The translations under genes were made by a program, and so were the position numbers. A stretch of DNA of 23,380 nt from Taibaiella sp. (GTDB lineage Bacteria > Bacteroidota > Bacteroidia > Chitinophagales > Chitinophagaceae): the NCBI GenBank assembly GCA_019454705.1, contig JACFNS010000002.1:1-23380 (forward strand), in the 5' to 3' direction. Positions within the stretch are counted from its first letter, which is position 1; each line of letters opens with the position of its first letter. The notes below the pieces were generated by a model. That model was not told where the DNA came from, made no database searches, and worked only from the letters and a program-made list of their open reading frames with translations. Below, piece by piece: positions 1,111-16,046 of the stretch.

Positions 1111-1137
1111 TAGGGGTATCGGTACGTGGTTGCGTTT
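1111..1137 (+). promoter_or_regulatory. ECF-type promoter of the T9SS secreted protein
   Basis: TAGGGGTAT (1111-1119), 13 bases, then CGTTT (1133-1137). The same two boxes with the same spacing precede fecR and the second TonB-dependent receptor. It ends 50 bases before the ATG at 1188. It is assigned to the neighbouring sigma factor by recurrence and position. Confidence 0.6.
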
Positions 1138-1187
1138 ATCCTCTAAAATAACAATTGAAAAAACGTTTACTCGAAAACAAAACTTAT

Positions 1188-2171
1188 ATGAAAAGGTTCA
1201 TGTTTGCTGCAACAATGGTTGCGACTTTTTTAACGGCTGGTACATTACAGGCCCAGATGCCGTACACTTTCAGTGTGTCCACAGCGTCATATCAACCCAT
1301 TGGCAATGGCACTACGCTGAATGACACAACCGTGTGGGATGATGAAATGTACAAAGTGGATATCCCATTTACATTCAAACTCAACAATAAACCGATGACA
1401 AGCCTCTTCCTGGAGGCTATGGAAATAGGATTGCCGGATACGGTCGGCAGTATGGACGGATTGCCCCTGATGAGTGTAGACCTGGTGGACCGTGGTATTG
1501 CCGACTCATTGCAAGTGTCACAGTCGCCTATACGATATATAATTGAGGGTGCGGCCGGCAACAGGATACTGAAGCTGGAGATTGCCAACGTGGGTTTTGC
1601 CGATGAATTTTATGTAGACAGCACGGTAGATGATTACTTCAATATGCAGGTGTGGTTGTACGAAAACGGAAACATAATCGAATACAGATATGGTAGCTCG
1701 TCGGTTACAGATTTTGGCACCTACTTTCCGCTGGGTATGCTTACAGGTTTTGTGAAGAATATTGATTTTTCAAGCTCTTCATTTGATATGATGTACATAT
1801 TGAGCGGAGACCCCTCATCACCGGTTATCGACAGCCTGACGCAAACTTCATTTACCACAGGCCTTACAGCCTTCCCTGATTCAGGCACTGTATATCGTTT
1901 CACACCCAAACCAACGGGCATTGCAGAGAAACACCGCATCCTGGAAATGAGCCTGTATCCCACCCGTACTACCGGCTCTCTGCATATAGATAATCCTAAC
2001 AGGGCGGAAGCCACCTATAAGGTATTGTCATTATCAGGCCAGATATTGAAGTATGGCAACATCAAAAAGGGTTTGAATACGGTAGATGTAAATGACGTAC
2101 CTGCCGGCCAATACCTGGTCAGGTTCGATTACGACGCGGGTTTTGAAACACAAAGGTTCATAAAACTATAG
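1188..2171 (+). CDS. T9SS-sorted secreted protein
   Basis: This is a 327-residue secreted protein. The ATG at 1188 gives a proper signal peptide (MKRFMFAATMVATFLTAG, ending LQAQ); a frame extension to a TTG at 1155 would place charged residues in front of it, so I chose 1188. The body is beta-rich and has the segment FNMQVWLYENGNIIEYRYG, a pattern I associate with jelly-roll-like surface domains of Bacteroidota exoproteins. The last 75 residues, from MSLYPTRTTGSLHIDNP through LSLSGQILKYG to QRFIKL, form a type A sorting domain that directs export by T9SS and attachment to the surface. The CTD begins around residue 255. An ECF-type promoter precedes it and a strong terminator follows, so it is monocistronic. 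Its co-regulation with the uptake locus is inferred from the shared promoter motif. The specific function is unknown. Confidence 0.8.
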   Translation: MKRFMFAATMVATFLTAGTLQAQMPYTFSVSTASYQPIGNGTTLNDTTVWDDEMYKVDIPFTFKLNNKPMTSLFLEAMEIGLPDTVGSMDGLPLMSVDLVDRGIADSLQVSQSPIRYIIEGAAGNRILKLEIANVGFADEFYVDSTVDDYFNMQVWLYENGNIIEYRYGSSSVTDFGTYFPLGMLTGFVKNIDFSSSSFDMMYILSGDPSSPVIDSLTQTSFTTGLTAFPDSGTVYRFTPKPTGIAEKHRILEMSLYPTRTTGSLHIDNPNRAEATYKVLSLSGQILKYGNIKKGLNTVDVNDVPAGQYLVRFDYDAGFETQRFIKL

Positions 2172-2183
2172 CATGGGGCAAAT

Positions 2184-2216
2184 AAACGGGGCAGGCGTCA
2201 AGGCGCCGCCCTGTTT
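2184..2216 (+). terminator. Terminator after the T9SS protein gene
   Basis: GGGC-A-GGCG and CGCC-GCCC pair around a short loop with one bulged A. AAAC and GTTT extend the stem, followed by TTACC. It starts 13 bases after the stop codon and separates this gene from the sigma factor gene. Confidence 0.65.
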
Positions 2217-2273
2217 TACCACTATAAAATGATTAAAATTATATCGTTCTTTGTATCTGTTTTTTAATTAAGT

Positions 2274-2834
2274 ATGGCGCAGGATCAAATTGCAGAAACA
2301 GCCTTTAAGTCATTGTTTGACAGGGAGTACCAGAACTTGTGCAGGTATGCGTATAGCTACCTGAAGGATGAGCACCTGGCTGAAGATGTGGTGCAAAATA
2401 CTTTTATAAAGATATGGGAACAGAAAAAAGACCTGTTGCCAACAGAAAACGCACGTTATTACCTGGTTACATCTGTGCGCAACAACTGCATATCTGAACT
2501 GCGCAAAGCTAAAAACCTCACCTACCCTGAGAATAACCCTGGTACTGATGCAGAGCCCTTTTTCTCGCATATGCTGCAAAAGGAGGAGTACAATGAACAG
2601 CAGAAAAGAATAGCCGCTGCCCTCGACGAATTGCCCCCCAAATGCAAAGAGATATTCCTGATGATAAAACTGCATGGCATGAGCTACAGGCAGGTGGCAG
2701 AAACGCTGGAATTATCGGTAAAAACCGTTGAGAATCAAATGGGTAAGGCTATCAAGACCTTCCGTAACCTATGCCTGCCGGTCTTATTGTCGTTATGCAA
2801 CCTGTTCACTATTAAAAATTTTATGTTGCCGTAG
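2274..2834 (+). CDS. ECF RNA polymerase sigma factor (FecI-like)
   Basis: This is a 186-residue extracytoplasmic-function sigma factor. Region 2, which binds core polymerase and the -10 element, covers about residues 14-80 and includes LAEDVVQNTFIKIWE. Region 4, which binds the -35 element, covers about 117-164 and includes the helix-turn-helix MSYRQVAETLELSVKTVENQ. Regions 1 and 3 are absent, as usual in the family. The next gene encodes a FecR anti-sigma factor and the one after it a receptor with an STN domain, which is the classic surface-signalling triad. The ECF-type promoter for fecR overlaps this gene's stop codon, so the sigma factor likely drives the downstream genes. No such motif precedes the sigma gene itself, so basal expression probably comes from another promoter. 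The last 20 residues are hydrophobic and not typical. Confidence 0.92.
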   Translation: MAQDQIAETAFKSLFDREYQNLCRYAYSYLKDEHLAEDVVQNTFIKIWEQKKDLLPTENARYYLVTSVRNNCISELRKAKNLTYPENNPGTDAEPFFSHMLQKEEYNEQQKRIAAALDELPPKCKEIFLMIKLHGMSYRQVAETLELSVKTVENQMGKAIKTFRNLCLPVLLSLCNLFTIKNFMLP

Positions 2835-2858
2835 GGGTAACGAACATAAATTTCGTTT
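2832..2858 (+). promoter_or_regulatory. ECF-type promoter of fecR and the receptor operon
   Basis: TAGGGGTAA (2832-2840), 13 bases, then CGTTT (2854-2858), ending 23 bases before the fecR ATG. The first box contains the sigma gene's TAG stop. It is identical in layout to the sites at 1111 and 7501. Confidence 0.65.
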
Positions 2859-2881
2859 TACATTAATAACAAGAAGAGCAA

Positions 2882-3859
2882 ATGGAAGAGCGGATCCACA
2901 TACTGATAGCGAAAAAGCTGACGGGTGAAGCGAGTGCAGAAGAAATGCGTGAGCTGGATACATGGGCGGCAAATGGAGACAACCGGACTGCCCTCAGAGA
3001 TACGGAACGCCTGTGGCAGGATAGTGATAGCCTGTTGGCCGGGCCAAAATTTGATAAAGGTGCAGCCTGGGAAAAAATCAGTGCTGGTATAAATAACACC
3101 TCTACGATACAGTCAAAAGGCAGGACTATTGCCTTCCCCGCCTGGACGAGGACAGCTATGGCTGCGGCTGCCGTGCTGGTCATTGGTTTGTTTGTGATAA
3201 TAGGCGTGAATAAAACAGGCAATGTAACCGTTATAGCTGATGCCGGAGATAAGCAGGTGACCTTGCCGGACAACTCTACAATTACACTAAAACATGGCGC
3301 TATACTGGCATATCATAAATCGTTTAACGAAGAAGACCGTAACATCACACTACAGGGCGAAGCGTTTTTCGACGTAGCGCGTAACGAGCAAATGCCGTTC
3401 ATCATTAATGCGGGCGATGTTTCTGTACAGGTGCTGGGTACGTCATTTTATGTAAAAAGCGGTAAAGCGGCCTATGTAGCGGTGGTAACCGGCAAGGTGC
3501 AGGTAACAGCAAATAAAAACACAACTAACAAGCTTATATTGACCCCGGGGGAAACGGGCAGGTTGGAAGATGGGAAACTGGTAGAAGACGCTACCGATAT
3601 ATATGACCTGATGTATTGGAAGACGGGAAATCTTAATTTTGCAGATGTGCCCCTGGCGGAGGTAGCGGCAAGGCTGGATAAAATATTCTCGGAATCAGTA
3701 CGTTTATCGGATATGATGCCTGCTGAAGCAGGTCGGCAGGTGGTCAATATAACGTTTAATCAACAGACATTAGAAGAAATGCTTCGGGAACTTTGCCTCG
3801 TAACACAATGCAGCCTGCAGCAAGACGGTAACAATTATATTATAGCGCCCCTGCAGTGA
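2882..3859 (+). CDS. FecR-family anti-sigma factor
   Basis: This 325-residue inner-membrane protein should hold the ECF sigma factor until a periplasmic signal arrives from the receptor. The cytoplasmic N-terminal part (about 1-88) begins with helices typical of the family (LIAKKLTGEASAEEMRELD). One transmembrane helix spans about 91-109. A periplasmic FecR domain follows (about 121-215), with LPDNSTITLKHGA and LQGEAFFDVAR as typical family stretches. The C-terminal DUF4974 domain, an STN-like fold, covers about 247-323 (LNFADVPLAEVAARLDKIF). The ATG at 2882 follows an A/G-rich stretch. The stop overlaps the GTG start of the next gene (GTGA, 3856-3859), suggesting translational coupling with the receptor. 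Confidence 0.93.
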   Translation: MEERIHILIAKKLTGEASAEEMRELDTWAANGDNRTALRDTERLWQDSDSLLAGPKFDKGAAWEKISAGINNTSTIQSKGRTIAFPAWTRTAMAAAAVLVIGLFVIIGVNKTGNVTVIADAGDKQVTLPDNSTITLKHGAILAYHKSFNEEDRNITLQGEAFFDVARNEQMPFIINAGDVSVQVLGTSFYVKSGKAAYVAVVTGKVQVTANKNTTNKLILTPGETGRLEDGKLVEDATDIYDLMYWKTGNLNFADVPLAEVAARLDKIFSESVRLSDMMPAEAGRQVVNITFNQQTLEEMLRELCLVTQCSLQQDGNNYIIAPLQ

Positions 3860-6423
3860 TAAAGTATATACTTTTCTGTGCAATCTTATTGACATGTTTT
3901 TTTGAGCCGGGCAGTTGTCCGGCTCAGGTACGTGGGTGGTTGTCCAGGTCTTATCAGCCTGCAGCCCAATCAGGCACGGTTAAATATTTCCTTACAGAAA
4001 TGAAAGAGCAAGGTATCCCTCTTTCATACAGCGAAGCATATATACAACCCGGGCGGCAGGTTACTATGCGGGGAACAGAGCAGACAGTACAGGATGTTTT
4101 GAATACGCTGTTTGCCGGGCAGTACCTGATCTTCATAGAAAAAGATGATAAGATATTAATTGCACCCAAAGAGCAGCAAGACGCTGCACAGCCTCGCGGA
4201 CATTACCGTACTATCAACGGGTTCATCAAAGAGGCGGGTAGCAACGAAGTGCTGGTGTCTGCAAGTGTGTATGCACCGGGTACACCATATGGCACTGTCA
4301 CCAACAGTTATGGTTATTATAGCCTTGTGTTGCCATCGCACATACGCACGGTAGTATATTCTTATATCGGCTACAAGGCAGACACAATAGACCTGTTGGC
4401 CGCAGACCGCAAAGATGTAACACTCACAAGGGACGATGTGATGGATGAGTTGTTGGTATCAGCCGATAAAGAAAGCAGTCCGGAACATCTGCACATGACG
4501 GCTGCTGATATACAGGCACGCCCTGTAGTATTGGGCGAAAATGATGTGATGCGCGCACTCCAATACCAGGCGGGGGTGCAGGCGGGTATCGACGGGTCGA
4601 GCCAGGTGCTGGTGCGTGGTGGCGACCCAGGGCAGAACCTGAACCTGCTGGACGGTGTCCCCTTGTATTATGTCGACCATTTTTTCGGGTTGACATCTGT
4701 GTACAACTCTGATGCGGTGAAGTCGGTAGATTTTCACAAAGGTGCCTTCCCCGCACGCTACGGTGGCAGGTTGTCTTCCATTATTGATGTGACCACCCGC
4801 GATGGCAGCCTGGAGAAGTGGGGCGGACAATTCAGCATGGGACTGGTAAAAAGCAGCCTCAACCTGGAAGGGCCGATTATCAAAAACAAATCATCCATCA
4901 TGCTGTCAGCCCGCCGTACCTGGGTAGATGCTTTCTGGAAACCTTTTACCAAAGACCCCAGCTTCAACTTTTACGATATCAATGGTAAAGCCAATTATAT
5001 CCTCAATGAAAATAACAGGCTGTATGTGAGTTTTTATAAAGGTAGGGACAAAATCAAATCGAAAATAGATGATGGTTCCATCAGTACGCAATGGGGCAAC
5101 ACCATCGGCTCTGTCAAATGGAATTCGATAGTAAACCCAAAGTTGTTTGTTAATACCATTTTCACCTACAGCCGTTTCAAATACAGGCTGGACGATACCC
5201 GGCAGGTGATACAGTATGGAACAATATCCAACAGCAGCGACTATACCGGCACTTCCACCATCAACGAATTTACCCAGAAGGTACAGGCTAACTGGAATAT
5301 GAATGCTACCCACCAGGTAGAGTTTGGTGAGAAATACTCTTACTCTGTTTTTGTTCCCGTATCGCTTGAGTCACAATCACTTTATACCCAGGCAGGATTA
5401 GCTGCACCCATCTCTACAGAATTTGCTACACACGAGGTGACACTCTTTGCTGAGGACAATATAACTATCAATGAAAAGTGGCTGATACGCCCTGGTATAC
5501 ATTGGGCTACCTGGTTCAACAGGGATTTTAGTTACTCTGCCTTACAGCCCCGGTTTTATGCTGCATTCAGCATTACGCCCCGTCATATATTGCACAGCTC
5601 TTTTACACAAATGACGCAGTACCTGCACCTGGTCAACAATAATTCTTATGGTCTGCCGACCGATTTCTGGATACCCAGTACCAGCCTTATAGAACCCGAG
5701 GAATCGTTGATGGGTACATTGGGTTACAAGGGTACGCCGGGAAAAAACTTTGAGTATAATATCGACTTCTACTACAAAGACATAACAGGCGTTACTATGT
5801 ATAATTTGGGTAAAGACCTGTTTGATAACACTATTCAGTGGGAGGATAAAATAATCCAGGGCAGGGGATGGAGTTATGGCGCGGAAGTTTCGTCAGAAAA
5901 GAAAATGGGTTCATTCACAGCAGCGTTCGCGTACACTCTTTCATGGACATGGCGCAAGTTTACACAGTTAAATGGGGGTGCTGCTTTCCCTTACCGCTAC
6001 GACAGGAGGCATAATTTTAAAGCATCGCTGGTGTACCAACGCAAAAAGTTTGAAGGGGCTGCAAGTTGGACATACATGAGCGGGGAAGCCATTACCTTGC
6101 CCGACCAGGTGTATCCCGACTTTGACCGCAACCTGATGATAGACCCAGGGTCGTCGTATTACAGCAGCAACTACACATACAACTATACCGGTTGGAACAA
6201 TTACAGGTTGCCGCCGATACACAGGCTGGATGTAGGGTTTAAATTCAAAAAGCAAAAACGCAAAACACAGCGCGAATGGGGTATTGGTGTATTCAATGCT
6301 TATGCTAACAAAAACGTCATGGTGGTTCAGTTGGAGCAGGATACTAATACTCAACAGTTCAACCTGCAGGCATTCAGCTTTTTGCAGTTTGTGCCCTACC
6401 TCACCTACAAATTGATTTTCTGA
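3856..6423 (+). CDS. TonB-dependent receptor with STN signalling domain
   Basis: This 855-residue outer-membrane transporter begins with a GTG that overlaps the fecR stop. The signal peptide is about residues 1-24. An STN (secretin/TonB N-terminal) domain follows at about 40-105, the module that contacts FecR in the periplasm. Next is a carboxypeptidase-regulatory-like domain (about 115-200, with GTVTNSYGYYSLVLP and YSYIGYKAD) and a plug domain (about 215-320, with VLVRGGDPGQNLNLLDGVP and FPARYGGRLSS). The rest is a 22-strand-type barrel ending in an aromatic residue (LTYKLIF). The substrate cannot be read from the sequence. The STN domain and gene order make it the sensor of the locus. The partner is a DUF4249 lipoprotein rather than SusD. 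The second receptor of this locus is clearly paralogous over the plug and barrel. Confidence 0.93.
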   Translation: MIKYILFCAILLTCFFEPGSCPAQVRGWLSRSYQPAAQSGTVKYFLTEMKEQGIPLSYSEAYIQPGRQVTMRGTEQTVQDVLNTLFAGQYLIFIEKDDKILIAPKEQQDAAQPRGHYRTINGFIKEAGSNEVLVSASVYAPGTPYGTVTNSYGYYSLVLPSHIRTVVYSYIGYKADTIDLLAADRKDVTLTRDDVMDELLVSADKESSPEHLHMTAADIQARPVVLGENDVMRALQYQAGVQAGIDGSSQVLVRGGDPGQNLNLLDGVPLYYVDHFFGLTSVYNSDAVKSVDFHKGAFPARYGGRLSSIIDVTTRDGSLEKWGGQFSMGLVKSSLNLEGPIIKNKSSIMLSARRTWVDAFWKPFTKDPSFNFYDINGKANYILNENNRLYVSFYKGRDKIKSKIDDGSISTQWGNTIGSVKWNSIVNPKLFVNTIFTYSRFKYRLDDTRQVIQYGTISNSSDYTGTSTINEFTQKVQANWNMNATHQVEFGEKYSYSVFVPVSLESQSLYTQAGLAAPISTEFATHEVTLFAEDNITINEKWLIRPGIHWATWFNRDFSYSALQPRFYAAFSITPRHILHSSFTQMTQYLHLVNNNSYGLPTDFWIPSTSLIEPEESLMGTLGYKGTPGKNFEYNIDFYYKDITGVTMYNLGKDLFDNTIQWEDKIIQGRGWSYGAEVSSEKKMGSFTAAFAYTLSWTWRKFTQLNGGAAFPYRYDRRHNFKASLVYQRKKFEGAASWTYMSGEAITLPDQVYPDFDRNLMIDPGSSYYSSNYTYNYTGWNNYRLPPIHRLDVGFKFKKQKRKTQREWGIGVFNAYANKNVMVVQLEQDTNTQQFNLQAFSFLQFVPYLTYKLIF

Positions 6424-6424
6424 T

Positions 6425-7480
6425 ATGAATAATGCGAAGAAACATATCATAATAGGTTTGCTGGCCACAGTGGTAGCCTTTGCTGCCTGCACTAAAAAAC
6501 TGGATTTGCCCGATATACCGCACGAAAAGAAAATAACACTGATTGCAGAGCTGGTAGCTAACGATAGCTTTTATATGAGGGCGGGACAAAGCTTACCGCT
6601 TACTAAAAACTCTTCCCTATATTTCGACCTGCTGCAAAATATGAAACTGATCGTTGAGCCAACGGGCTTGCCGGCGTTTACGCTTACAGAGTATGCAGAA
6701 GAATTTACAGGACAGACCTATACACTGCCTTTTGCGTCCAGTCAGAAAGTATTAGCTAACACTACGTACAACATTACGGCTAATCATGTTGATGTGGGCA
6801 CAGCTACTGCGAAAATAACTATACCGGCACCGTTCACAGCATTGTTAAAGGATACGGCTCATATACAGTATTCATCTGCAGACGCTATACAAGCGGACAT
6901 TACCATTAACGATGATGCAACGGGCGAACATTATTATGTGATTGAAGTGTTGAAGCAAATCGTGAACATCAGGAACCTGTTTTATTACAACAACCAATGG
7001 CTGGACGTGACCGTACCTGCTTACAAAATAACTTACGACAGCCTGGTAGCGGCCGGTGTGCAGGTGCAAAAATATTCAGATACTACATTTCAAAGGGCAT
7101 ACACCAGGCAGGGGGTTTACACTAACGACCCGAATACGGAGAACGTAAAAGACGGCGACATCTTCGCCATGAACAAGCGGATATTGCTCAAAGACAATTA
7201 TTTCAATAGCCAGAATTACACTACAAGGGTAATCATTCGTAATACGGTAAGCGAATTTGAAGAGGAAGCCCGCAAAGGGGTTGTACATATAATGGTGAAA
7301 TCTGTGCCTAAAGAATATTTTGAGTTTCTGAAAGCTTATGAGCAATATGACCCCTCGGTGGGGTTCAATTCACTGGCACCACCGGTAAAGCTTATAGGCA
7401 ATGTGCAAAACGGCCTGGGCATGGTGGGCGCCGCCTACGAGGTGCGTTTCAGCTATTGGTTCGATACCTGGGGCTTTTAG
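6425..7480 (+). CDS. DUF4249-family lipoprotein
   Basis: This 351-residue protein has a lipoprotein signal (positive N-terminus, hydrophobic stretch, FAAC with Cys22), so it should be anchored in a membrane, probably facing out beside the receptor. The mature part begins with the family-typical KLDLPDIPHEKKITLIAELV, followed by beta-rich repeats and a C-terminal segment with KAYEQYDPSVGFNSLAPPVKL and NVQNGLGMVGA. DUF4249 proteins are regularly encoded next to TonB-dependent receptors in Bacteroidota; a surface-capture role like that of SusD is plausible but inferred. The ATG lies one base after the receptor's stop codon, so the two are co-translated from one message. A second family member follows the second receptor. 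Confidence 0.88.
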   Translation: MNNAKKHIIIGLLATVVAFAACTKKLDLPDIPHEKKITLIAELVANDSFYMRAGQSLPLTKNSSLYFDLLQNMKLIVEPTGLPAFTLTEYAEEFTGQTYTLPFASSQKVLANTTYNITANHVDVGTATAKITIPAPFTALLKDTAHIQYSSADAIQADITINDDATGEHYYVIEVLKQIVNIRNLFYYNNQWLDVTVPAYKITYDSLVAAGVQVQKYSDTTFQRAYTRQGVYTNDPNTENVKDGDIFAMNKRILLKDNYFNSQNYTTRVIIRNTVSEFEEEARKGVVHIMVKSVPKEYFEFLKAYEQYDPSVGFNSLAPPVKLIGNVQNGLGMVGAAYEVRFSYWFDTWGF

Positions 7481-7500
7481 TATTTTTTAGTGATTGCAGA

Positions 7501-7527
7501 TAGGGGTAATCCAGTTTTTATGCGTTT
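7501..7527 (+). promoter_or_regulatory. ECF-type promoter of the second receptor
   Basis: TAGGGGTAA (7501-7509), 13 bases, CGTTT (7523-7527), ending 26 bases before the ATG at 7554. It has the same motif and spacing as the fecR promoter. It would give the second receptor pair its own control by the same sigma factor. Confidence 0.65.
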
Positions 7528-7553: not shown

Positions 7554-9857
7554 ATGACAAAAATCAAATTCATTCTATTTCTGATAGCCACGGTAAGCTG
7601 TTTTGTAACCGGGGCGCAGAACATTACAGTAAGTGGTTATATTTCTGAAGCGGGCAGCGGTGAGCGGCTGATAGGGGCCACCGTATTTGTTCCCGGAAAA
7701 AATATTGGCACTACTACCAATGCCTACGGTTTTTACTCAATCACCCTGCCTGCTGATACATTTACACTCCGCTATTCTTATATCGGTTATCAGCCTGTAA
7801 TCAAAAATATTACGGGTAAGGGCAATCAACAAGTGAATGTTGAAATGAAACAGGATAAAGGATTGGAGGAAGTGGTGATTACCTCGCAAAAAGATGCCAT
7901 CCAGTCGCGTACGCAAATGAGCAGTATTGATCTGCCCATACAGACCATAAAATCCCTACCCGCCTTCCTGGGCGAGGTAGATGTAATGCGTGCCATACAG
8001 TTGCTGCCCGGGGTACAAGGCGGCAATGAGGGTTCTACAGGTATCTACGTACGTGGCGGAGGGCCCGACCAGAACCTGATACTGTTGGACGGCGTACCTG
8101 TGTACAATGCCAGTCACTTGTTTGGTTTTTTCAGCGTATTCAATGCCGATGCTATACGTAGTGTGGAAGTGATAAAAGGAGGTTTCCCCGCCCGTTATGG
8201 CGGCAGGTTGTCCTCTGTTGTAGACATCAATATGAAAGAAGGTAACAAAGAAAAATTGCATGGCGAAGGTGGGATTGGGTTGATAGCTTCAAGGCTGACG
8301 TTGGAAGGCCCTATACAGAAAGGCAAATCGTCATTTATGATTTCCGGCCGCCGAACTTATTATGATCTGATAGCTAAACCCTTTATGCGTGGTGCGGTAA
8401 AAGGCGGCTACTATTTCTACGACCTGAATGGTAAAGCCAACTTCCAGCTGGGCAAGAAGGACCACCTGTACATCAGCGGCTATTTTGGCAACGACAAATT
8501 TTACGCCCGTCAATCCAATAACAGCGGTGGGTTGCTCAATACAGATTTCCGTACCAACCTGCAATGGGGTAACGCAACTGCCGTTGGCCGTTGGAACCAT
8601 GAGTTCACACCAAAGCTCTTTGGTAACCTGACGACATATTACAGCAGGTACAGGTTCATGGTATCTGCACAAACGAAGAATCAACTGGTAGGGAGCAACG
8701 AAGAATACTTATTGAAGTACAGCTCAGGCATCAACGACAAAGCGGTGAAGTATGATTTTGACTACCTTCCGGGGGCTAATCATTATATCAAAGCCGGCGT
8801 AGGTTTTATCGCTCATACTTACAAGCCCGGTGCACAGCAAACTAAAATCAGGAGCATACTCGCCAACCAGGATACGACAATTGGTGTAGATGATATACAC
8901 GCCAACGAAATAGATGCATACATAGAAGATGATATACGCATATCATCACGTTTCAAAGCAAACATCGGCCTGCACTGGACCGGGTTCTCAGTACGGAACC
9001 AATTTTATCACTCTATACAGCCGCGTGTAGCTGCACGTTACCTGATTACAGACGAGCTGAGTGCTAAAGCGTCTTTCGTGCAGATGAACCAGTTTATCCA
9101 TCTGCTCACCAACTCATCCATTGGCCTGCCAACTGACCTGTGGGTGCCTGTTACCGATAAGGTGCCCGTGCAGAAATCTTATCAGTATGCAGCAGGTATG
9201 GCCTATACACACCGTACGGGCATAGAGGTGAGTGTGGAAGGTTATTACAAGACCATGGATAATATCATAGAATACAAAGAGGGCGCAAGCTTCTTTAATA
9301 CCGCCACCAATTGGGAGGATAAGATAGAGATAGGCAAGGGCTGGAGCTATGGTGGTGAGTTATTTGTACAGAAAAAGAAAGGCCGTTTTACAGGATTGAT
9401 GGGTTATACCCTGTCGTGGACAAACAGGCAGTTTGACAACCTGAACATGGGTAAAGTATATCCTTATCGCTACGACCGCAGGCACGACTTTAAAATTGCG
9501 GGTATCTACAGCCTCACTGATAGGATAGAGCTAAGCGCTGAATGGCTGTATGGTACAGGTAATGCCATCACCCTGCCTGTTGCTTATCATCAGGGGCTTG
9601 AAGGTGGTGAAGTACTGGTATATGGAGAGCGTAATGCTTTCAGGATGCCCGCCTACCACAGGGGAGATGTGAGCATCAAGTTTTCTAAACAAAAGAAAAA
9701 CTGGGAGCGTGCCTGGGTAGTCGGCGTGTACAATGTATATAACCGCCGCAATCCCTTCTATGTGTACAGCAGTACCAACAGCAGCGGCAATAATGTATTC
9801 AAACAAATGAGCCTGTTCCCTATCATACCTTCTATCACATATCAGTTCAAATTTTAA
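7554..9857 (+). CDS. TonB-dependent receptor without STN domain
   Basis: This 767-residue outer-membrane transporter has a signal peptide of about 21 residues (ending VTGAQ). A carboxypeptidase-regulatory-like domain follows at about 24-108 (GATVFVPGKNIGTTTNAYGF, YSYIGY), then the plug (about 125-230, with IYVRGGGPDQNLILLDGVP and FPARYGGRLSS), and a barrel ending in ITYQFKF. It is paralogous to the receptor at 3856, sharing the VMRA start of the plug and the WEDKI...GWSYGGE and YRYDRRHDFK stretches late in the barrel. It lacks the STN domain, so it can transport but should not signal to FecR by the known mechanism. It has its own ECF-type promoter and is followed by its own DUF4249 gene. Confidence 0.93.
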   Translation: MTKIKFILFLIATVSCFVTGAQNITVSGYISEAGSGERLIGATVFVPGKNIGTTTNAYGFYSITLPADTFTLRYSYIGYQPVIKNITGKGNQQVNVEMKQDKGLEEVVITSQKDAIQSRTQMSSIDLPIQTIKSLPAFLGEVDVMRAIQLLPGVQGGNEGSTGIYVRGGGPDQNLILLDGVPVYNASHLFGFFSVFNADAIRSVEVIKGGFPARYGGRLSSVVDINMKEGNKEKLHGEGGIGLIASRLTLEGPIQKGKSSFMISGRRTYYDLIAKPFMRGAVKGGYYFYDLNGKANFQLGKKDHLYISGYFGNDKFYARQSNNSGGLLNTDFRTNLQWGNATAVGRWNHEFTPKLFGNLTTYYSRYRFMVSAQTKNQLVGSNEEYLLKYSSGINDKAVKYDFDYLPGANHYIKAGVGFIAHTYKPGAQQTKIRSILANQDTTIGVDDIHANEIDAYIEDDIRISSRFKANIGLHWTGFSVRNQFYHSIQPRVAARYLITDELSAKASFVQMNQFIHLLTNSSIGLPTDLWVPVTDKVPVQKSYQYAAGMAYTHRTGIEVSVEGYYKTMDNIIEYKEGASFFNTATNWEDKIEIGKGWSYGGELFVQKKKGRFTGLMGYTLSWTNRQFDNLNMGKVYPYRYDRRHDFKIAGIYSLTDRIELSAEWLYGTGNAITLPVAYHQGLEGGEVLVYGERNAFRMPAYHRGDVSIKFSKQKKNWERAWVVGVYNVYNRRNPFYVYSSTNSSGNNVFKQMSLFPIIPSITYQFKF

Positions 9858-9876: not shown

Positions 9877-10818
9877 ATGAAACTGAATATAATAGCCATA
9901 ACAGCAGGTGCTTTACTACTTACATCCTGTGAAAAAGAAATAATAGTAGATGTGCCTCCACATGAACCAAAACTCACAATCAACTCTGTTACTTATACAG
10001 GTGATACTATTAGTGTGATGTTGGGCAAAAGCATCGACGTGTTGAAACATAAGTACGGTACCAACCTGGGCGTCAATAATGCAGTCGTTCAACTGCAGGC
10101 AGGAGATAAAGCAGCGGTCACTATGAAATACGATAATACATCAGGTATGTATATATCGGATATGGTGGCGGAGCCGGGTATAACATATAGTGTAAAGGCC
10201 GTCGCACCCGGGTTTAAGGACGTTTCTGGAACAACGTGCGCGCCACGCGTGGTGGAAATACAATCGCTACAGAGGATAAAAGATGTGCGGCTGGATATGG
10301 ATGGTAATATGCAGGACGAACTGAGGCTGACCTTTGACGACCCCGCAGGCGAAAAGAACTACTATATAGTCATTATCAGCGCATCATATATGGTCAATAA
10401 CTATGAGGAAACGGCATATTCCGGTTGTGTCAACACACCAGACCCGTCAGTAGAAACCCTGTACGACGAATCTATTGACCAGAATACCTGTATAGAAAGC
10501 AATGGCATCTTCCTGCGCGATGAATTGTTTGACGGTAAGCGTAAAGAACTAAGGTTGTTTGTACGCAGTACCGATCTGCAGGCTGTGGAGATGCCCGGGT
10601 TAGGCATGGTGTATCCCACTATAGAGATACAGCATGTAACGGAGGAGTATTTCAGGTATATCAAATCATCACGTTACGCTTCTGTCAACAGCGGTAACCC
10701 CTTTGCAGAACCATCTAATGTGTACACCAATATCAAAGACGGTTTTGGGATATTCAGTGTCTCTCATTCGGAAGTGATGGAAATAAAAGAGGACTATGTG
10801 TATATAGCGGGTGCGTGA
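9877..10818 (+). CDS. DUF4249-family lipoprotein
   Basis: This 313-residue lipoprotein has the lipobox LTSC with Cys18. The mature start EKEIIVDVPPHEPKLTINSV matches the DUF4249 pattern seen in the first copy, as does the C-terminal IKDGFGIFSVSHSEV. It lies 19 bases after the second receptor gene and is probably its surface partner. Two cysteines in the middle (SGCVNTPD and QNTCIES) might form a disulfide. The stop codon TGA lies in the loop of the terminator hairpin, so the gene ends inside the terminator. Confidence 0.87.
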   Translation: MKLNIIAITAGALLLTSCEKEIIVDVPPHEPKLTINSVTYTGDTISVMLGKSIDVLKHKYGTNLGVNNAVVQLQAGDKAAVTMKYDNTSGMYISDMVAEPGITYSVKAVAPGFKDVSGTTCAPRVVEIQSLQRIKDVRLDMDGNMQDELRLTFDDPAGEKNYYIVIISASYMVNNYEETAYSGCVNTPDPSVETLYDESIDQNTCIESNGIFLRDELFDGKRKELRLFVRSTDLQAVEMPGLGMVYPTIEIQHVTEEYFRYIKSSRYASVNSGNPFAEPSNVYTNIKDGFGIFSVSHSEVMEIKEDYVYIAGA

Positions 10819-12475: not shown

Positions 12476-14632
12476 TTATAATTTCACCCACTTTACGGTA
12501 TAGTTTGCTCTACCGGTTGATGCATTTACAGCATAAATACCTTTAACCAAATCTGACGCAGGAAGGCCAATATAATTATCGCCTTCATTTACTTCGATAT
12601 TAGTTTTATATACAGTTTTACCTGCAACATCAGTTATAGTAATATCCATGATTTGTTTTGCAGCTGCATATATTTTTAGCTGTGCATTATTGCCCGATGG
12701 GTTAGGTATAATCATTACCCCTTTCTCCATTGATTCTACCACTGATATGCCCACTGCCTGTATGGTAGCATTGGTATCGGTGGTATTGAATGCCGTTATT
12801 TGATTGCCATTCTTGTCTATCATAATAGCATCATCAAATATAAAGTCTACTATAGTGCCCGGTATGGCATTTGACGGTACAGTAAAATTTAACATGGCTA
12901 TAGTACCGGTGCCGCTTATATTCTTATGGTCGGTACGGGCCATTGCCCAATCTATAGTCGACGTGCTGAAATTCTTACTGAATTTGAGCGTATTACTGCT
13001 GTTTCCAATCCAGCTTGTTGCTGTAGTGATTGTGGCCTGTGTTCCCAGGGTGATGCCATTAATCTGTACATTGGTACCAAGCCCGTACATGTCGTTCATC
13101 GGGTCGGCTGTAGTACCCAGTTTTATGGGTATACTGACACTTGCACCCGGTGCAAGTGTTATACCAGCCAGGTCGAAATAGAGTTCCGGCACACCGCTTG
13201 TTTTACTTCTTGGCCCGCCTTTAGGATGTGTCAATCCATAATTAGCGGCTATTGCTGCAAGGTCGCCTGCATTGATAATACCGTTCCCGTTGCAATCGCC
13301 GTGTTTAATGTTTACTGTTGAGAATGGATAGTTCATAGACCAGTTGGTTGCCCATTGCGGTACCCAATTTATAGATGCACCTGGCCTTGCAGGGCCTGTC
13401 TGGTTGTACGCTACCGCTATGGCCAATACATCCCACAGGTTGGCTATCTTATCGCTGTTTGCGTCTCCGGGCCATACGCTGTCTGTAGGGCATTGTTGAT
13501 TTTTTATTAGCAGAGTGTAATTGACATAACCGCGGGGGCAGGCATTATCCCTAACTTTTATAGGTATATATAAATACGGTAATGTGGATGGGTTCATGTT
13601 AGAAGTGGCCGTCCACGATACTGTTACAGAACCGGTGGGTTTACCATTAGTTTTACTGATATTGAAATTCCATCCTGATAGCTGCGGAGTATCAACCTGC
13701 TCGATATATACTGAATCCGTTGAAACCGGGTCTGTAAAGCTTAGCGTGGCTGAACCTGCGGCACCCGGGCATGCATATGCCGTGGCGCTGCTTAATGAAT
13801 TGAGCAGCGGGTATGAATAATTTATATTGCCCCCTAACACTGCAACTGCAAAGTCGCGCATATAGCTGGCTATAAGGTTGCCGTTTCTGTATTCTTTTAC
13901 CAGGAAAGCAAGGTTGTAATTGCCCATATTACTACCCTGTAATGTCATTGTTTGTGCTGCATTGTTGATAGTGTACGTGCCACTGCCCCCAAAGGGTGAT
14001 GTTGCTGAATACCCTGTTGCGTATGTTACATTAGTTGTAGCATTGGTTTTAGGTGCGATACGTTCAAATACTATACTGTCCCCATCTACGTCTACGACTT
14101 GTATGGGAACTACGGTTGTATTGGTTGACAAATAGAAAGGGCCGTGGTTAACTACAAGCGCGCTCGTGTTTGCGCCGTTTGTATTGTTCAGGGTTGCCAT
14201 CAGGTGCAGGTTACTTGTTCCCGCCAGGTTCATCATAGTAGTTCGTGCATTAGCATTGTATTCAAACACCCAATCAGTCCTGGGTGATGACGGTAAATTA
14301 ACTACCGCCTTGTATGTTCCCATCATAATACCTGGTACATTGGAAGAAGAGTTCTGACACTTGGTCACCGTGCCTGGGCAAGGAACTGTTACCTGGTTCA
14401 GGTATAATTGCTGGGCAGTAACCTGGAAGTTGACGCCTGTCGATGCGGAACGTATTGTAATAGGGACCGACCCGGGAAGTGCTATGCCGGAGCAGTCGCG
14501 ATAAAGATGCAACGTAATTACATAACTGGAGCCGTTGTATGCGTAACTCAACTCCCCGCCCATCAGGTGCGATGCGCTGGATTGAACACTTGATAACAGC
14601 AAAACCGCAAGTAAACAGTTGATGTATTTCAT
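12476..14632 (-). CDS. T9SS-sorted surface protein with dockerin-like and cohesin-like segments
   Basis: This 718-residue exported protein has a signal peptide of about 20 residues. The mature start SHLMGGELSYAYNG with LHLYRDCSG is a module common at the head of large Bacteroidota surface proteins. Residues 389-470 hold two loop-helix units, DANSDKIANLWD and DCNGNGIINAGD, each followed by a helix, as in type I dockerin calcium-binding repeats. Residues about 483-620 (LYFDLAGITLAPGASVSIPI onward) resemble a cohesin-like beta sandwich. The last 75 residues (MIIPNPSGNNAQLKIYA to YTVKWVKL) form a type A T9SS sorting domain. Cohesin- and dockerin-like parts in one chain suggest intramolecular packing or self-association, not a true cellulosome; that is inference. 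It is alone on this strand, convergent with the decarboxylase. Confidence 0.82.
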   Translation of the reverse strand: MKYINCLLAVLLLSSVQSSASHLMGGELSYAYNGSSYVITLHLYRDCSGIALPGSVPITIRSASTGVNFQVTAQQLYLNQVTVPCPGTVTKCQNSSSNVPGIMMGTYKAVVNLPSSPRTDWVFEYNANARTTMMNLAGTSNLHLMATLNNTNGANTSALVVNHGPFYLSTNTTVVPIQVVDVDGDSIVFERIAPKTNATTNVTYATGYSATSPFGGSGTYTINNAAQTMTLQGSNMGNYNLAFLVKEYRNGNLIASYMRDFAVAVLGGNINYSYPLLNSLSSATAYACPGAAGSATLSFTDPVSTDSVYIEQVDTPQLSGWNFNISKTNGKPTGSVTVSWTATSNMNPSTLPYLYIPIKVRDNACPRGYVNYTLLIKNQQCPTDSVWPGDANSDKIANLWDVLAIAVAYNQTGPARPGASINWVPQWATNWSMNYPFSTVNIKHGDCNGNGIINAGDLAAIAANYGLTHPKGGPRSKTSGVPELYFDLAGITLAPGASVSIPIKLGTTADPMNDMYGLGTNVQINGITLGTQATITTATSWIGNSSNTLKFSKNFSTSTIDWAMARTDHKNISGTGTIAMLNFTVPSNAIPGTIVDFIFDDAIMIDKNGNQITAFNTTDTNATIQAVGISVVESMEKGVMIIPNPSGNNAQLKIYAAAKQIMDITITDVAGKTVYKTNIEVNEGDNYIGLPASDLVKGIYAVNASTGRANYTVKWVKL

Positions 14633-15314: not shown

Positions 15315-16046
15315 TTATACTTTTATCTCAAACCGCTTAGGTGGCGGCATTTCCCAGTCTATTTTGCGTTTCACCAGCCACAGTTCCTTTATCTCGCTTT
15401 TGGGTAGCAGAAACTGCGGGTAGAATTCTTCATTATCGCTGATGCACACATAGTGTTCGTTGTCTTCTTTGCGGTACAGGCGTTTTACCATAATGCGGTC
15501 TTCTGTTACTACTACATATATATAAAACTGCGCCGTGCTGTTCCAATAGTCGGGCGATACGGTTTCTGCCACTACGTGGAAGCCTTCTTTCAATGTGGGC
15601 TCCATACTATCTCCGCTCACTTCAAACACACGGTACCTGTCGCCTTTGTAGGGCATATTGGGTACGTTCATCACTTCCAGTTCCTCTACAAATGCGGGGT
15701 CCAGGTAGTGCTTGCTATAGCCCGCCTGCGCCCTGATGGGCACTACATGCAGCCCGTCATTGCCGCCCAGGCCCAGGGCTTTCTGCATGCGCAGGTCGTC
15801 GCCTGTGGTGCGGGTGGGCTGGTCATACATATCAGCCGGATTGTTATAAGCCCCGCCAAACAATTGCTCGGTGGTAATGCCCAGCGCCTTGGCTGCCCGG
15901 GTACGTATGGTATCGTCCAGCCGCTCTTTGCGAAAGTTATAATATAGGGTGCTGCGGGGTACGTTCAGTGCTATGGCCAGGCCATGCACCCCCAGTTTGT
16001 TCATACGTGCGGCGTTCTGCAACGCTTCGCCTTCATGGATACTCAT
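15315..16046 (-). CDS. S24-family (LexA/CI-like) transcriptional repressor
   Basis: This is a 243-residue DNA-binding repressor. An XRE-like helix-turn-helix covers about 10-62 (GVHGLAIALNVPRSTLYYN). The C-terminal S24 peptidase domain covers about 101-225. All parts of autocleavage are visible: the Ala108-Gly109 bond in RAQAG, the catalytic Ser147 in SGDSMEP, and a candidate Lys188 in IMVKRL. Such proteins repress phage or SOS-like genes and inactivate themselves on RecA-linked stress; here that is inferred from the motifs. The architecture fits prophage CI-type repressors better than LexA, whose N-terminal winged helix differs. Upstream lie several ACATTTGT sites overlapping two face-to-face promoters, so it very likely represses itself and the rightward small genes. 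Confidence 0.87.
   Translation of the reverse strand: MSIHEGEALQNAARMNKLGVHGLAIALNVPRSTLYYNFRKERLDDTIRTRAAKALGITTEQLFGGAYNNPADMYDQPTRTTGDDLRMQKALGLGGNDGLHVVPIRAQAGYSKHYLDPAFVEELEVMNVPNMPYKGDRYRVFEVSGDSMEPTLKEGFHVVAETVSPDYWNSTAQFYIYVVVTEDRIMVKRLYRKEDNEHYVCISDNEEFYPQFLLPKSEIKELWLVKRKIDWEMPPPKRFEIKV

Follow-up and report, generated by a model that had tools for sequence, protein, structure and literature searches.

In the 23,380-nucleotide stretch of Taibaiella sp. DNA analysed here (the window), a two-box motif, TAGGGGTAW-N13-CGTTT, stands before the genes of a T9SS secreted protein, a FecR regulator and the second of two TonB-dependent receptors. The motif is very probably an ECF promoter in which TAGGGGTAW forms the -35 box, N13 the spacer and CGTTT the -10 box, and we regard it as highly likely that its three copies would be recognized by the adjacent FecI-like sigma factor, which would thereby serve the operons of the T9SS gene, fecR and receptor 2. 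The initial annotation had proposed the same assignment, for which we now find support in the conservation of the three promoter positions across genera, the concentration of exact copies in genomes carrying an orthologue of the sigma factor, the two-box geometry and the presence of a similar box at other FecI/FecR pairs.

Results

Organization of the locus

Seven genes follow one another in the order T9SS protein, sigma factor, fecR, TonB receptor 1, DUF4249 protein, TonB receptor 2 and DUF4249 protein, and the features of the region are as follows.

1111..1137, + strand: predicted ECF-type promoter, copy 1, TAGGGGTAT-N13-CGTTT, before the T9SS protein gene; exact match
1188..2171, + strand: secreted-looking protein with a T9SS type A C-terminal sorting domain, 327 aa; TIGR04183 above cut-off
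2187..2217, + strand: hairpin then TTTT, a likely terminator between the T9SS and sigma genes; -18.8 kcal/mol (35 bases before the T-run)
2274..2834, + strand: FecI-like ECF sigma factor, TIGR02985 (Sig70_bacteroi1), 186 aa; 152.6 bits, cut-off 126.4
2832..2858, + strand: predicted ECF-type promoter, copy 2, before fecR; exact match, exact also in the same-genus genome G001
2882..3859, + strand: FecR anti-sigma regulator, 325 aa; FecR 60.6 bits, cut-off 24
3856..6423, + strand: TonB-dependent receptor 1, likely signal transducer; weak N-terminal STN domain
6425..7480, + strand: DUF4249 protein 1; 71.8 bits, cut-off 28.5
7501..7527, + strand: predicted ECF-type promoter, copy 3, before TonB receptor 2; exact match, exact also in G001
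7554..9857, + strand: TonB-dependent receptor 2; Pfam match, no STN domain found
9877..10818, + strand: DUF4249 protein 2; 122.9 bits, cut-off 28.5

The C-terminus of the T9SS protein scores 35.3 bits against TIGR04183 (cut-off 23) and 25.1 bits, below the cut-off of 27, against Pfam PF18962, and in a predicted model this domain fits the solved T9SS C-terminal domains 8qb1 and 8glk. Apart from the sorting domain the protein matched no family among the Pfam and NCBIfam profiles, and the N-terminal part of the model (mean pLDDT 75.9) gave no convincing fold match. The sigma factor also matches Pfam Sigma70_r2 and Sigma70_r4_2, while the FecR-domain regulator, whose FecR_C match lies exactly at its cut-off, adjoins the sigma gene, as in FecI/FecR cell-surface signalling. 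The STN domain of receptor 1 has an E value of 0.028, below the Pfam cut-off; three of the four receptor 1 orthologues tested gave 3.8e-5, 8.9e-5 and 0.0029, all likewise below cut-off, and the fourth showed no STN. At E 0.001 no NCBIfam profile matches receptor 1, and receptor 2 scores 76 against the SusC/RagA cut-off of 368.25, which does not qualify it for a SusC/SusD pair; the partners of both receptors are DUF4249 proteins, not SusD. Further along the window, both on the minus strand, lie genes for a 718-aa secreted-looking protein with dockerin-like stretches and a T9SS-like end (12476-14632) and for a 243-aa protein resembling a phage-type repressor with a LexA-like end (15315-16046), both described by eye.

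A scan of the window returned exact copies of the motif at 1111-1137, 2832-2858 and 7501-7527, all on the + strand, with no fourth, and 100 dinucleotide shuffles of the window returned none. The gaps from box to start codon are 50 bases (ATG 1188), 23 bases (ATG 2882) and 26 bases (ATG 7554), ATG 1188 being the signal-peptide-like start of the T9SS gene, for which the ORF listing also allows TTG 1155. The initial annotation is thereby confirmed as to the three sites, their distance of 23-50 bases from start codons and, through the TIGR04183, FecR and TonB receptor profile matches, the identity of the three boxed genes. The first three bases of copy 2 double as the TAG stop codon of the sigma gene. 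The sigma ORF of the window lacks a box in the stretch that runs from 160 bp ahead of it to 60 bp into it. The stretch 1066-1101, between a thioredoxin-like gene on the minus strand and the T9SS gene, has a further TAGGGGTAT, which lacks a -10 box at the right distance and is followed by the inverted repeat TATTGTTAAA...TTTAACAATA and T's.

Conservation of the promoter positions

The positions of the boxes were compared in 20 non-redundant loci (the window, L082, L183, L189, L196, L199, L201, L203-L211 and L213-L216), the duplicates L188 and L212 and the more distant L197 and L217-L219 being left out of the count. The comparison covered the seven window genes only, and a box was counted as TAGGGG[TA]-N12..17-NGT lying between 160 bp upstream of an ORF and 60 bp inside it. 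By this measure a box precedes the T9SS gene in all 11 loci with a readable upstream stretch, with variants of the -10 box among them, receptor 2 in all 17 loci that show that gene, and fecR in 14 of 20. As L082, L183, L189, L196, L199 and L201 had first been noticed through exact copies of the motif, a separate count was made for the 14 loci found from the sigma protein alone (L203-L216, where L212 is the record form of L201), and there the box was present before the T9SS gene in 8/8, before receptor 2 in 11/11 and before fecR in 10/14.

Among the six loci that lack the fecR box, a boxed T9SS gene lies 94-210 bp upstream of sigma in five, while in the remaining one a box stands 135 bp upstream of sigma. 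The two arrangements are not sharply separated, since the window (102 bp) and L210 (140 bp) have a similarly short gap between the T9SS gene and sigma and yet carry a fecR box, while L207 and L208 have boxes before both sigma and fecR; in L196 a strong hairpin lies between the T9SS gene and sigma. Between the window and G001, whose stretch upstream of the T9SS gene reads N, the boxes of the two comparable sites are identical at 27 of 28 positions and the spacers at 16 of 26, although the receptor 2 site taken by itself has a spacer (10/13 identical) whose conservation comes close to that of the boxes.

A receptor/DUF4249 pair is found in two of the three boxed operons, and these pairs lie in tandem, as would be expected had the upstream sequence been duplicated along with the receptor genes. 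Such a duplication, or chance, is nevertheless an explanation to which we give almost no weight, because the spacers and flanks of the three window copies have diverged while the boxes agree, and because the positions hold across genera.

Three loci have features of their own. In L188 two boxes stand back to back at 8950-8976 (-) and 9001-9027 (+), 24 bases apart and facing in opposite, outward directions, upstream of the T9SS gene of G303. The more distant L197 (G404) has a variant arrangement, with a gene for a 139-aa lipoprotein-like product, preceded by an exact box, between sigma and fecR. L205 comes from a genome labelled Azovibrio restrictus, which is not a member of the Bacteroidota, and its fecR promoter region is identical to that of L203; it is probably a misplaced contig.

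Exact copies in the genome and the family

The genome-wide search that the initial annotation had called for found four exact copies in the 2.92 Mb draft (87% complete), three of them in the window contig C143, and one copy of the reversed control pattern. With two mismatches allowed, the draft held 32 matches and 49 for the reversed control, so that only near-exact copies are informative. The fourth exact copy is on contig C253, 18 bp before the gene for a 259-aa protein with a signal-peptide-like start, of which only two remote relatives were met in 58 other genomes searched; it sits just behind an RpoE-like ECF gene and a putative anti-sigma gene. Two one-mismatch matches were also noted: one on C303, and one on C244, opposite an aminotransferase-like coding region, that we attribute to chance.

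Across the family, an orthologue was defined as a match to the window sigma factor at E 1e-40 or better, which 21 of 394 genomes possess; as no more than eight candidates were scored per genome, some orthologues may have been overlooked. Those 21 contain 25 exact copies and the other 373 contain 23; at least one copy is present in 12/21 genomes with an orthologue as against 23/373 without (p 6e-9). The reversed pattern showed no such bias, with 2 copies in the orthologue genomes and about 52 in the others. As the total for the whole sample (48 exact copies) does not exceed that of the reversed control (about 54), it is only the distribution by orthologue that is informative. No exact copy occurs in 9 of the 21 orthologue genomes, among which G029 has a variant.

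These data also bear on whether the boxes might be the promoter of another ECF sigma factor, such as the RpoE-like one on C253, the adjacent FecI-like sigma having some other target or none here. The sigma region 4 family has 15 matches in the genome, the fourth exact copy adjoins the RpoE-like pair, and overlapping ECF regulons are known elsewhere. We nonetheless consider this reading unlikely, as the copies track the orthologue of the FecI-like sigma and lie at fixed places in its locus. Moreover, among the 15 own-genome sigma-family loci, TAGGGG with NGT at the -10 distance occurs only at the window locus and on C253, and the other 13 showed no two-box site within flanks of at most about 1.5 kb a side.

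Recognition by the adjacent FecI-like sigma factor, which we prefer, need not be confined to its own locus. Of the 25 exact copies in orthologue genomes, 14 lie on another contig or at a distance of over 1 Mb from the sigma gene, as against 1.3 expected at the rate of the non-orthologue genomes and 2.9 at the control rate; the 14 are not all independent, G336 and G388 sharing two sites. An ORF starts within 60 bp downstream of seven of them, at 104 bp for an eighth and at 117 and 126 bp for two more, while the remaining four lie inside ORFs. By eye, eight of these ten ORFs begin like secreted proteins, that of L184 having a T9SS tail. A gene for a protein of about 140 aa lies behind two unlinked copies and a relative behind a third. 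It is present in 8/21 orthologue genomes, the Taibaiella genome itself having no relative of it, and a TAGGGGT box stands near its start in 7/8, with -10 variants. Three of the eight genomes had been met via exact copies; four of the other five have the box, which is missing in one species (L299). The secreted-looking product (L187 8298-8717, L200, L293-L299) carries a TIESxxPGGxGRSRI stretch. The unlinked copies, one of which is the C253 copy of the own genome, and the boxed gene of about 140 aa together refute the view that the regulon is self-contained, as the initial annotation had put it, and the unlinked copies point instead to what may be a small dispersed regulon.

The box at other FecI/FecR pairs of Bacteroidota

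A first set of 66 FecI/FecR pairs was drawn from 99 relatives of the sigma factor (three of them, those of the window, G001 and G009, had come up through the motif as well). TAGGGG was the hexamer most enriched over coding background both upstream of sigma (16/66) and between sigma and fecR (13/66), never occurring in both stretches of one locus, and it was found in 0/66 stretches behind fecR. A second set of 80 named loci, found from sigma protein patterns and including 73 with fecR, again had TAGGGG as its top hexamer, upstream of sigma in 16/73 and before fecR in 37/73; it occurred in both stretches in 4 loci and in either in 49, the Markov simulation means being 2.8 and 3.2 for the two stretches, and in neither in 24/73. 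Of the 37 fecR sites, 14 start within sigma, 9 on its stop codon and 14 beyond it, and 33 of the 37 start 31-54 bases before fecR. The pattern does not hold throughout: with groups assigned by record title, neither of the two stretches contained TAGGGG in the four Bacteroidales loci (L231, L239, L256, L262) or the six Flavobacterium loci (L238, L247, L269, L274, L278, L281), four of the latter having a TAGGGG site before another gene. Over the 80 loci TAGGGG lies within 100 bp upstream of 67/252 ORFs matched to the window genes and 36/506 unmatched ORFs; judged by eye, many of the 36 have a full box, and these may be additional members of local regulons.

The geometry of these sites fits that of a promoter. 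Among 105 sites before ORFs, chosen by TAGGGG[TA] alone, 100 have NGT starting 21-23 bases on (67 of them at 22), whereas windows of four offsets placed elsewhere yield 10-19%; the -10 forms are chiefly CGTT (31), TGTC (26) and TGTT (17). The motif could in principle be the binding site of an ordinary DNA-binding regulator common to the three operons, and the 5' box is indeed the more constant part, but in sites that were chosen by that very box. The two boxes, however, are separated by 12-14 bases, and 100/105 sites have GT at the -10 distance; by eye the boxes form no palindrome, and sigma and FecR are the only regulators among the seven window genes matched in orthologous loci. On these grounds we judge the regulator reading very improbable and retain the ECF promoter.

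In the set that was not seeded on the recognition helix, the helix ENQMGK is associated with TAGGGG (16/20 vs 11/43, p 8e-5); in the seeded set the association is not significant (44/63 vs 5/10, p 0.28). The -10 box co-varies with sigma residues, for example at position 66, which is T in the CGT class and mostly R in the GTC class, but as this co-variation follows clades it is only a lead. Within loci the first -10 base (C or not) agrees in 34/46 pairs as against 22.6 by shuffling, a value reached in 4/2000 shuffles, with shared ancestry among the loci. The Taibaiella draft itself has two FecR matches, in the window and on C36, and the C36 FecI/FecR pair has by eye TGGGGGTA with TGTCA at the spacing of the window boxes, inside a long listed sigma ORF and upstream of the start expected for a sigma of normal length. 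From these sequences the two systems would share a -35 box and differ in the -10 box. On contig C337 of G000 (L290), TAGGGGTAA-N13-TGTCAT at 6789-6816 (-) stands 24 bp before the gene of a 391-aa secreted-looking protein, which is perhaps a target of this second pair. Whether TAGGGGT is a -35 box common to many ENQMGK-type TIGR02985 sigma factors across much of the Bacteroidota, with the -10 box (CGTTT, TGTTA, TGTCA and others) separating the paralogues, is in our estimate an evenly balanced question.

Discussion

In the mechanism that we propose, RNA polymerase with the TIGR02985 sigma factor (2274-2834) would read the three copies, TAGGGGTAW serving as -35 element for sigma region 4 and CGTTT as -10 element for sigma region 2. 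A ligand at TonB receptor 1 would give rise to a signal through FecR by which the sigma factor is freed or activated, and the sigma factor would then switch on the T9SS surface protein, the fecR-receptor 1-DUF4249 operon and the receptor 2-DUF4249 operon, and probably also the unlinked secreted-protein gene on C253. Sigma binding, transcription starts, signal path and ligand are the elements that we infer. As fecR has a box and the sigma gene of the window does not, induction should increase sensor and regulator alike without increasing the sigma factor, making the response self-limiting; and as an STN domain, a weak one, was found in receptor 1 only, both uptake pairs would be under a single sensor. 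Two-box sites are conserved in silico, one ahead of fecR-receptor 1 or farther upstream and one ahead of receptor 2, and this conservation of promoter positions lends in silico support to the earlier proposal that a secreted surface protein and two uptake pairs form one regulon.

The E. coli fecI gene is not driven by its own sigma factor, in which the window sigma gene would resemble it, and the window box differs from the E. coli fecA promoter. The wider likeness to the E. coli FecI/FecR/FecA system, as far as it is described in the excerpted text of PMC9249621, lies in the combination of an ECF sigma, FecR and a TonB receptor and in a receptor operon as the sigma target. Unlike in that system, fecR in the window is preceded by a box of its own, which starts on the sigma stop codon, and is itself followed by the receptor, and the box is common to two receptor/DUF4249 pairs and a T9SS protein.

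Within the Bacteroidota the closest parallels are partial. Excerpts of PMC9723704 take a CGT -10 box as a sign of ECF promoters and describe the SM6 promoters of Flavobacterium psychrophilum, which resemble the window copies in having a CGT -10 box and in belonging to a Bacteroidota ECF regulon; SM6 differs in preceding T9SS components and an ECF/anti-sigma pair, its sigma factor not being settled there, and 'GGGG' is absent from the main text, the SM6 logo being in a figure. SigP of Porphyromonas gingivalis is likewise an ECF sigma tied to type IX secretion, but in the portions of PMC4800418 available its targets are secretion components and the motif proposed for it is A/T-rich and does not resemble the window box, whereas the window box would control a T9SS-tailed, cargo-like protein. 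The pairing of receptor and DUF4249 protein is matched in B. thetaiotaomicron by the conserved pair of the TonB transporter BT2172 and the DUF4249 protein BT2173, DUF4249 being a proposed partner of the transporter; the excerpted text describes no promoter or sigma factor for them (PMC11003636).

The Bacteroidota ECF boxes described in the available parts of three papers have other sequences (PMC9723704; PMC7366714; PMC4800418). Our literature search recognized, among the papers available to it, none describing a TAGGGG ECF motif in Bacteroidota. The 2021 ECF reclassification may list predicted motifs for these groups. The parts of the locus fit FecI/FecR surface signalling, which is of a known kind; the TAGGGG promoter grammar was not found in the literature searched, and its novelty is not established.

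ECF sigma factors are numerous in these bacteria. Several genomes have dozens of matches to the window sigma, up to 34 per genome among the matches listed, and B. thetaiotaomicron has 50 ECF sigma factors according to an excerpt of PMC12596196, for none of which was a recognition motif known in 2020 according to part of another paper (PMC7366714). In the window the box links a T9SS surface protein to two TonB/DUF4249 uptake pairs, and a two-box site that marks targets, with a -10 box that differs from system to system, would make regulons testable by simple searches and reporter fusions. If the shared -35 box proves true, one simple grammar would make it possible to read many FecI/FecR regulons across the phylum from sequence.
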